Positions 31,935 to 34,294 of a DNA stretch of 64,000 nucleotides are shown here, piece after piece (position 1 is the first letter of the stretch; each line of letters opens with the position of its first letter). The position numbers and the translations under genes are program-made. The stretch spans positions 62,001-126,000 of the forward strand of contig CABYXE010000001.1 of the NCBI GenBank assembly GCA_902522825.1, read 5' to 3'. This DNA comes from an uncultured SAR86 cluster bacterium (GTDB taxonomy: Bacteria > Pseudomonadota > Gammaproteobacteria > Magnimaribacterales > AG-339-G14). The notes beneath the pieces are model-generated. The model had not been told where the DNA came from. It saw only the letters and a list, made by a program, of their open reading frames with translations, and did no database searches.

Positions 31935-31962
31935 AAAAAACCCAGCTAATACTGGGTTTTTT
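31935..31962 (-). terminator. Intrinsic terminator after metY
   Basis: CCCAG (31941-31945) and CTGGG (31952-31956) form a stem with a 6-base loop. Flanking A and T runs extend the stem and, on the minus strand, give a T tract (from the A run at 31935-31940). It lies 14 bases after the metY stop. The T run on the other side makes it potentially bidirectional. Confidence 0.8.
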
Positions 31963-31975
31963 TGTTTATTTGATT

Positions 31976-33280
31976 TTAACTAGCTTTATCTATTGCCTGA
32001 GCAATATCAGCAATAATGTCTTCAACGTTCTCAATTCCGATAGATAATCTGACATAGCCGGGTGTCACACCAGCAGAGAGTTGTTCTTCTGGAGCCAATT
32101 GACTATGCGTTGTAGTTGCAGGATGAATAGCTAACGATCTTGAATCTCCAATATTAGCAACGTGATAAAGGAGCTCCAAAGAATCAATAAACTTACTGCC
32201 CGCTTCTTTTCCACCAGGTAATTCAAAACCAATTAAAGCGCCGTAACCACCAGTCATATATTTGTCAGCTTTTTCTCTTTCAGCTCCTTCAAATAATCCC
32301 GGATAAGTTACCGATTGTACTTTTTCATTGGCAGCAAGAGCTTCAGCAACTGCTTGAGCATTTTTTGCATGTTCTCTCATTCTCAATGGTAAAGTTTCCA
32401 AGCCTTGAATGAACATCCAGGCATTGAAAGGACTCATAGCACCACCTAAATCTCTTAATAAAGTAGTTCTCAGTTTAAGCAAGTAAGCAAAAGGAAGTCC
32501 CATATTTTTTGTCACTTGTTCATCCCAGACTACTCCTCCGTAACAAGGATCTGGGGTATTCATAGCTGGCTGCCTATCGGCTCCTGCTTTACCCCAATCA
32601 AAATTACCGCCATCCACAATCAAACCACCAATGGTAGTTCCATGACCACCAATGTATTTTGTAGTTGAATAAGTAGTAATAGCAGCTCCATGATCAAAAG
32701 GCCTACATAGTACTGGTGCTGCAGTATTATCAACAATTAATGGAATATTATGTTTTCTTCCTATTTCTGCAACTTCTGAAATTGGAAATACATGAAGTTT
32801 TGGATTTGGAAGAGTTTCAGCAAAATAAGCTCTAGTTTTTTCATCAGTTGCCTTTGCAAAATTTTCTGGATCGGTTGGATCAACAAATCTAACTTCTATG
32901 CCCATCTCACGCATATTATTTTTAAATTGATTATAAGTTCCACCATACAAGTGAGAGGAAGACACAATATTATCTCCTGATCTAGCTAAATTTTGTATAG
33001 AGTAAGCTGATGCAGTTTGACCAGAAGCAACTGCTAGCCCAGCTACTCCCCCGTCTAATGCTGCCATTCTTTGCTCCAACACATCACATGTTGGATTCAT
33101 TATCCTGGTATAAATATTCCCAAATTCTTGCAGTCCAAAAAGACTCGCCGCATGGGCAGTATCGTTAAATTGATAACTTGTTGTTTGATGAATTGGAACG
33201 GCTACTGAACCTGTTGTTTCATCGTTTCGCCATCCAGCATGTAAAGCGATCGTTTCTAAATTTTTTCCTTCGTAAGACAT
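31976..33280 (-). CDS. metY: O-acetylhomoserine aminocarboxypropyltransferase (sulfhydrylase) MetY
   Basis: 434 residues, PLP enzyme of the Cys/Met metabolism family. It starts ETIALHAGWRNDETTGSVAVPIHQTTSYQF, with GNIYTRIMNPT, ASGQTAS, and the PLP Lys in YSTTKYIGGHGTTIGG. It makes homocysteine from O-acetylhomoserine and sulfide. Length (about 430) and the TIGGLIVDGGNFDW insertion favour MetY over cystathionine synthases. The leader carries a SAM-II-type riboswitch and terminator. GGAG ribosome site. Confidence 0.96.
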   Translation of the reverse strand: MSYEGKNLETIALHAGWRNDETTGSVAVPIHQTTSYQFNDTAHAASLFGLQEFGNIYTRIMNPTCDVLEQRMAALDGGVAGLAVASGQTASAYSIQNLARSGDNIVSSSHLYGGTYNQFKNNMREMGIEVRFVDPTDPENFAKATDEKTRAYFAETLPNPKLHVFPISEVAEIGRKHNIPLIVDNTAAPVLCRPFDHGAAITTYSTTKYIGGHGTTIGGLIVDGGNFDWGKAGADRQPAMNTPDPCYGGVVWDEQVTKNMGLPFAYLLKLRTTLLRDLGGAMSPFNAWMFIQGLETLPLRMREHAKNAQAVAEALAANEKVQSVTYPGLFEGAEREKADKYMTGGYGALIGFELPGGKEAGSKFIDSLELLYHVANIGDSRSLAIHPATTTHSQLAPEEQLSAGVTPGYVRLSIGIENVEDIIADIAQAIDKAS

Positions 33281-33300
33281 ATTTTCTCCTTCTCTTAAAT

Positions 33301-33331
33301 AAAAAAACCTGTTTGCTAGAGCTAAACAGGT
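33301..33331 (-). terminator. Riboswitch-controlled intrinsic terminator in the metY leader
   Basis: On the minus strand CCTGTTT and AAACAGG form a 7-bp stem (33330-33324 and 33314-33308) with a 9-base loop followed by seven Ts. It sits between the aptamer and the metY ribosome site. Its 5' arm plus loop contains TGTTTAGCT, the exact complement of AGCTAAACA in the aptamer 3' strand, so the two structures are mutually exclusive. Confidence 0.85.
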
Positions 33332-33341
33332 CGAAAAGGGT

Positions 33342-33392
33342 CGTGTTTAGCTAATTTTATAAAGCGTTTGCAAGTCAGATAAATCAACGCTA
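33342..33392 (-). ncRNA. SAM-II/SAM-V-type S-adenosylmethionine riboswitch aptamer
   Basis: On the minus strand, P1 AGCGT/ACGCT encloses a 19-base loop beginning TGATTTA and ending TTGCAA. It is followed by TTATAAAATTAGCTAAA. Loop length, TGATTTA, TTGCAA, TAAA and GCTAAA all agree in order and spacing with the SAM-II pseudoknot aptamer. SAM-V, described from marine bacteria, shares this core. It lies 61 bases before metY, a known target of this class. High SAM should lower metY expression through the following terminator. Confidence 0.88.
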
Positions 33393-33433: not shown

Positions 33434-34294
33434 ATGAAAAAATTTGAAACACTTAGGACTGAGACTAAAGAAAACTCTTTGATTATTTATCTTTCCAGAG
33501 AAGAAAGAATGAATGCTTTTACCTTAACGATGCAACAAGAATTAGTTGCAGTATTAGATGAAGCAGAAAACATGGACGAAATAAAATCTATAATCTTTAC
33601 TGGAGATGGTAAAGCATATTGTGCAGGAGCAGACCTCTCATCGGGTGGAGATACTTTTGATAATAGAAAAGGAAGAGAAAAAACCAATAATGTAGTGAGA
33701 GATTCTGGTGGACTTTTAACTCTTAGACTTTTCAAAAGCAAAAAACCTTTGATTGCTGCGGTTAATGGAGCAGCTGTGGGCATTGGAGCTACTATGTTAT
33801 TGCCAATGGATTTTAGAATATGTTCTGAAGAAGCTCGGTTTGGATTTGTTTTTGCAAGAAGAGGTATTGTGCCTGAAGCTGCTTCAAGTTGGTTTCTTCC
33901 AAGATTAGTAGGAATTACTAAAGCGCTTGAATTATGTTACTCAGGAAAAATAATTTCAGCTAAAGAAGCTGAAGATATAAATTTAGTTTCTGAGGTTTTA
34001 CCCAAAGAACAGCTTTTAGATAGAGCTTTGGCAGTCGCTAATGAATTTACAGCTGAAAGTTCACAGATATCTATAGCTCTGACAAGGCAAATGATGTGGC
34101 GCATGCTGGGAGCAGATGACCCCATGGAAGCTCACAAGATAGACTCAAGAGGAGTTTTTGAACTTGGTCAATCTGGAGAAGCTATAGAAGGTGTTAAATC
34201 TTTTCTTGAAAAACGCCCTCCTTCGTTTCCTGGAAAAGTTTCAAAAGATATGCCAAGTTTTTATCCATGGTGGGATGAAAAAGAGTTTGAATAG
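33434..34294 (+). CDS. Enoyl-CoA hydratase/isomerase family protein
   Basis: 286 residues of the crotonase family. Oxyanion-hole segments are YCAGADLSSGG and GAAVGIGATMLLPMDFRI. FARRGIVPEAASSWFLPRLVGITKALELCYSG keeps a Glu at the second catalytic position (ALELC) and has another in VPEAA. Activity as hydratase or delta-isomerase is plausible. First gene of an operon with a carboxyltransferase (2-base gap) and an aldehyde dehydrogenase. Divergent from metY. Confidence 0.9.
   Translation: MKKFETLRTETKENSLIIYLSREERMNAFTLTMQQELVAVLDEAENMDEIKSIIFTGDGKAYCAGADLSSGGDTFDNRKGREKTNNVVRDSGGLLTLRLFKSKKPLIAAVNGAAVGIGATMLLPMDFRICSEEARFGFVFARRGIVPEAASSWFLPRLVGITKALELCYSGKIISAKEAEDINLVSEVLPKEQLLDRALAVANEFTAESSQISIALTRQMMWRMLGADDPMEAHKIDSRGVFELGQSGEAIEGVKSFLEKRPPSFPGKVSKDMPSFYPWWDEKEFE

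Follow-up and report, generated by a model that had tools for sequence, protein, structure and literature searches.

Does the leader of metY in an uncultured SAR86 bacterium carry a SAM-II riboswitch, and would such a switch act on transcription or on translation? This question is raised by the window analyzed here, a stretch of 64,000 nucleotides from a host genome of 1.11 Mb in 30 contigs belonging to the SAR86 group (Gammaproteobacteria). When SAM-II was described, putative terminators were noted and an OFF switch was proposed (Corbino 2005; PMC1273637). In alpha-proteobacteria, metY is a core SAM-II target gene, and a 2014 survey of about 200 proteobacterial genomes recorded SAM_alpha in Rhizobiales and Rhodobacterales only (PMC4239095). 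Many Sargasso Sea SAM-II sequences have likewise been ascribed to alpha-Proteobacteria, in a paper that called SAM-II action on transcription not experimentally established (PMC2258182). In Sinorhizobium (S.) meliloti, the SAM-II of metZ was predicted to terminate transcription, and a terminated ~100-nt RZ RNA rises at high SAM (RNA Biol 2022; PMC9373788). In Pelagibacter, SAM-II is described as terminating transcription ahead of bhmT (PMC5069961), and tandem SAM-II arrangements with terminators have been catalogued (PMC9481103). A previous sequence-only reading of this locus noted that SAM-II/V switches are often thought to act on translation, a premise at odds with the literature, in which most SAM-II are known to be associated with terminators (Corbino 2005; Barrick and Breaker 2007; S. 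meliloti metZ; Pelagibacter bhmT). No treatment of SAM-II in SAR86 was found in the literature searched, the coverage of which excluded most subscription journals.

Results

The metY locus

The metY gene (31976-33280, minus strand) encodes an O-acetylhomoserine sulfhydrylase of 434 aa (TIGR01326, 601.1 bits; cut-off, 495) with 97% identity to close relatives named as SAR86 cluster bacteria. A 153-nt intergenic region separates it from a divergent enoyl-CoA hydratase gene (33434-34294, plus strand). The switch element occupies the minus strand from 33393 to 33301, and its aptamer, terminator and GGAG, as well as metY itself, all lie where the sequence-only reading had placed them. Reading from 33393, P1, a loop, the pseudoknot strands, a 9-nt stretch complementary to the terminator, an intrinsic terminator with seven U, the GGAG and the ATG follow one another. 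The leader from 33393 is 5'-CTAGCGTTGATTTATCTGACTTGCAAACGCTTTATAAAATTAGCTAAACACGACCCTTTTCGACCTGTTTAGCTCTAGCAAACAGGTTTTTTT-3', with the ATG 20 nt further on; the GGAG was identified as the metY Shine-Dalgarno (SD) sequence by sequence reading (33286-33289, minus strand). There is no gene between the hairpin and metY, and a search for a sigma-70 promoter of the metY leader gave no convincing candidate. Directly 3' of metY lies a strong ordinary terminator, AAAACCCAGTATTAGCTGGGTTTTTT (window positions 31935-31970), and metY is therefore probably transcribed alone.

The aptamer and its assignment to SAM-II

All aptamer parts are on the minus strand. The 5' strand of P1, AGCGUU (33386-33391), pairs with AACGCU (33363-33368). 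Loop L1, GAUUUA (33380-33385), belongs to the SAM-II core, and the 5' strand of pseudoknot P2 (33370-33379) is made up of UCU (P2b) and CUUGC (core), with GCUAAACACGA as its 3' strand (33341-33351). This is the architecture of SAM-II (SAM_alpha, RF00521; Corbino et al. 2005), namely P1 and an H-type P2 pseudoknot with the conserved AUUU, UUGC and GCUAAA, and metY, a methionine/SAM gene, is immediately downstream. In an alignment of 53 distinct SAR86 leaders, all chosen for having a U-run terminator, these three core motifs showed no variation. In the same leaders, P1 was paired in 99.4% of cells with three pairs changed on both sides, including an exchange of AGCGUU/AACGCU for AGCACC/GGUGCU, and P2b changed from C-G to U-A at two positions.

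The Rfam scan proposed in the sequence-only reading gave a mixed outcome. A match to RF00521 over the full model length was found (E = 4.7e-4 in 1 kb; 7.2e-5 in the 153-nt intergenic region), but at 27.9 bits it falls below the gathering score of 36, and there was no match to SAM_V (RF01826) in the window at E <= 10. The match to RF01726 was weaker than that to RF00521. Across the 1.1-Mb genome, the window match to RF00521 is the sole credible one; the next, at 18.4 bits, apparently lies in coding sequence and was not accepted as a second SAM-II. The shortfall is one of score and not of parts, given that the orthologous leaders L012, L025 and L027 score 36.1-39.4; among metY leaders of the same order, scores reach 39.4 (L027) and 39.9 (L121 and L122). 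Moreover, the covariance model R1, from which the window's genus was left out, gave the window element 85.3 bits (E = 7.2e-17). Over the genome, the element was the sole strong R1 match (E = 1.2e-15; next, E = 0.11), and a second R1 match at 31935-32016 (28.9 bits) was set aside as the ordinary terminator 3' of metY. SAM-V shares a similar pseudoknot core and the metY target, but it is a translational switch situated near the start codon, whereas in the window about 65 nt separate the end of the aptamer core from the ATG. Judged by sequence comparison, the element belongs to SAM-II, as the sequence-only reading had proposed; orthologue scores, covariation and R1 settle the class, and it is on the orthologues and the covariation, not on the window's own Rfam score, that membership is based.

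Distribution in SAR86

The RF00521 cut-off was passed in 14 of 203 SAR86 genomes. A match at E <= 0.05 was obtained in 124 of 203, which is an upper figure because 2 of 14 control genomes also match at this loose threshold, and R1 matched 82 of 203 at E <= 1e-6. In a separate set of 30 metY leaders from the host's family, chosen without regard to a terminator, the same element including the terminator was present in all 30. In part of another SAR86 family (L138, L126, L169, L170 and L185), the metY leader keeps the aptamer but lacks the U-run terminator, which suggests a changed expression platform; in L138, a longer hairpin can arise from the aptamer 3' strand, GCTAAACAAGATT pairing with AATCTTCTTTGGC.

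The terminator

The intrinsic terminator hairpin GACCUGUUUAGCUCUAGCAAACAGGUU (33306-33332, minus strand) stands between the aptamer and the metY reading frame, as in a terminating riboswitch, and runs into seven U (33301-33307, minus strand) that are invariant in the 53 leaders. The folding energy of GACCUGUUUAGCUCUAGCAAACAGGUUUUUUU was -11.7 kcal/mol, which none of 200 shuffles equaled, and GACCUGUUUAGCUCUAGCAAACAGGU-U7 folded at the same energy (z = -4.0). Among the 53 leaders, 92.5% of terminator cells were paired, and four two-sided pair changes were observed, compared with 1.3 in shuffles (4 of 500 shuffles reached four). One genus has the arms CCUGCUU/AAGCAGG in place of CCUGUUU/AAACAGG, and two cystathionine-synthase-like leaders have CCUAUCU/AGAUGGG. 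This covariation bears out the hairpin claimed in the sequence-only reading and, along with that in P1 and P2b, supplies the covariation among homologous metY leaders whose absence, like that of any Rfam hit, that reading had named as refuting it; neither of these outcomes occurred, although the Rfam hit is below threshold. A simple terminator scan reported no site here, probably owing to the loop and gap limits of the scan.

The anti-terminator helix

The complement described in the sequence-only reading is exact over 9 bases: AGCUAAACA (33352-33344, minus strand), which overlaps the P2 3' strand, is complementary to UGUUUAGCU (33328-33320, minus strand), which lies within the terminator 5' arm and loop. 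When the downstream 60 nt were searched in 20,000 dinucleotide shuffles, a complement of 9 or more bases arose in 0.5%; in one sequence alone, such a match is suggestive only. The anti-terminator hairpin had a folding energy of -10.4 kcal/mol (0 of 200 shuffles as good) against -11.7 kcal/mol for the terminator, and this near balance is what a switch needs. The helix overlaps both the aptamer and the terminator, and it and the terminator are mutually exclusive folds.

Across SAR86, the helix extends to 10 pairs, GCUAAAYARG:CCUGUUUAGC, with 92.6% of cells paired compared with 20-52% when the strands were slid against each other. Several leaders contain a single A-C, A-G or G-G mismatch. No two-sided changes were found within the 53 SAR86 leaders, because GCUAAA is fixed by the aptamer. 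The terminator stem of the window has a bulged A; this base is invariant, and its partner in the anti-terminator is the invariant U of GCUAAA.

Two-sided variation was found in other Gammaproteobacteria. A class-wide search of 369 gammaproteobacterial genomes detected above-cut-off SAM-II in 30. In 42 non-SAR86 leaders with a recognizable terminator, the duplex between the aptamer 3' strand and the terminator 5' arm averaged -12.8 kcal/mol, compared with a mean of -5.5 kcal/mol for shuffled arms, and 31 of the 42 were at p <= 0.01. The helix in these bacteria is GCUAAAGC:GCUUUAGC. Position 7, which is C-G, U-G or U-A in SAR86, is G-C in 32 of 36 other gammaproteobacterial leaders; position 8, A-U in 52 of 53 SAR86 leaders, is C-G in 23 of 36. 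Because the pattern used to pick the arms covered only positions 1-6, it introduces no bias at positions 7 and 8; the counts, however, come from sequences that are related within lineages and do not represent independent events. The anti-terminator claimed for the window is thereby conserved in SAR86 and varies on both sides beyond it.

Proposed mechanism and alternatives

Comparative sequence evidence supports the aptamer, the terminator, the mutually exclusive helix and the gene they precede; the leader is very probably a SAM-II riboswitch that terminates transcription and so represses metY, with SAM as the presumed ligand and ligand-dependent termination as its presumed action in vivo. When SAM is plentiful, the nascent leader would fold into the SAM-II pseudoknot. 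The 3' strand (GCUAAACA...) would then be held in P2, and the freed CCUGUUUAGC would pair with GCAAACAGG, forming the terminator just ahead of the metY SD and turning expression OFF. When SAM is scarce, the 3' strand would instead pair with the terminator 5' arm (AGCUAAACA:UGUUUAGCU), the terminator would be blocked, and RNA polymerase would read into metY. P2 and the anti-terminator exclude each other because both use the same strand; sequence comparison gives the helices only, and the order of these folding events is our inference.

If the SAM-II aptamer acted on translation, binding would mask the SD or start region, and the hairpin would be a leaky or constitutive attenuator. Sargasso Sea metagenome SAM-II and S. 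meliloti metA are thought to be translational (PMC9373788), and in the minimum free energy (MFE) fold of the window, CCUUUUC in the linker is paired to GAGAAGG at the SD. However, this pairing is not conserved outside the genus; the other SAR86 genera often have the SD immediately after the U-run. All 53 aligned leaders have a U-run terminator separating aptamer and SD; although having one was a condition of their selection, no such condition applied to the 30 family metY leaders, and all of those have it too. The complementarity of the aptamer strand to the terminator arm argues further against translational control, which we consider improbable. Nor is it likely that the hairpin is an ordinary constitutive terminator, such as the end of a small RNA, with a coincidental 9-bp complement. 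The shuffle frequency given above leaves some room for chance, but SAR86 leaders repeatedly show such a complement, as do gammaproteobacteria of independent lineages, in which the bases at positions 7 and 8 differ, and the hairpin leads to metY without another gene; of the explanations weighed here, this one is the least credible.

It could also be argued that the window holds a decaying or weak copy, in which a P2b mismatch lowers affinity and SAM control is weak or lost. The RF00521 score of the window is below the 29.5-36.1 bits obtained for the same-genus G018, G019, G020 and G022, and its P2b has one U-C mismatch where genus relatives have U-A. This mismatch could weaken binding; it is also possible that it is an error of metagenome assembly. 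On the other hand, the invariant core bases, P1, the terminator and the anti-terminator are all intact, and R1 scores the element highly, so that loss of control seems scarcely more probable than translational control. Termination controlled by SAM-II is the reading that we retain for the window.

A second SAM-II subtype and tandem arrangements

A second SAM-II subtype, AATCGTGATTTGATCCTATTGCCGCGATTTAAAAGAAAGAGCTAAAACGGAA-n-TTCCCAGGATTTAA, was observed in other SAR86 genomes; it is without a U-run and scores 25-34 bits to RF00521. Its sites are L151:1960-2039(-), L154:153-232, L164-L168, L171, L172, L175, L184 and L186. By a strict pattern, which gave no match to a reversed control, it occurs in 49 of 203 SAR86-order genomes and is absent from the window genome. 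As judged by protein reading, it precedes genes for AlkB-like membrane monooxygenase, BHMT, mmuM-like, metH and TonB-receptor proteins. Its 3' AGGAU is able to pair with AUCCU of the aptamer loop, and a matching change in L162 (AUCUU/AAGAU) keeps the pairing. Doublets about 110 nt apart precede the AlkB-like gene (L160:142-329 and L161:115-306). In L157, L159, L173, L179 and L188, SAM-II is followed by SAM-I/IV (RF01725, 60-69 bits) before a small outer-membrane-barrel-like gene; seven SAM-II/SAM-I-IV tandems were counted in PMC9481103, and these may or may not overlap with those in SAR86.

Discussion

The SAM-II class, metY as its target gene and the terminator mode are already known; the increments made here are the SAR86 host group and a group-wide anti-terminator rule. 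Like the SAM-II of Corbino et al. (2005), the window element has a methionine gene downstream and a putative terminator between P2 and the ORF (PMC1273637), and, like the S. meliloti metZ switch, it has a predicted SAM-induced terminator before a sulfhydrylase gene (PMC9373788). It differs from the SAM-II of RF00521 in its score below the Rfam cut-off, its short P2b (2-3 bp), its AT-richness, its gammaproteobacterial SAR86 host and a terminator arm that is complementary to GCUAAA itself. In five alphaproteobacterial leaders (Mesorhizobium and the PS1 clade; the S. meliloti leader was not among them), too few to generalize, the complementarity was less regular and mostly involved P2b (GGCCG/GGACCG). 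As far as PMC5069961 and PMC9481103 relate the work of Poiata (2009), the SAM-II/SAM-V before bhmT in Ca. Pelagibacter ubique is similar in having an intrinsic terminator and a marine, streamlined genome; unlike the tandem related there, the window has a single SAM-II with no SAM-V partner.

We tentatively suggest, with rather more doubt than for the window itself, that gammaproteobacterial SAM-II may share a platform of direct competition, in which the invariant ligand-binding GCUAAA is also the anti-terminator strand, so that their terminators must carry UUUAGC in the 5' arm and loop, and that SAR86 methionine genes may be under this switch and the second SAM-II subtype.

These comparisons would extend SAM-II control of methionine synthesis to SAR86, a marine lineage that is abundant and uncultivated and also a possible further source of Sargasso Sea SAM-II sequences. 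They offer, in addition, a simple rule, open to experimental testing, for the way in which SAM-II affects transcription.
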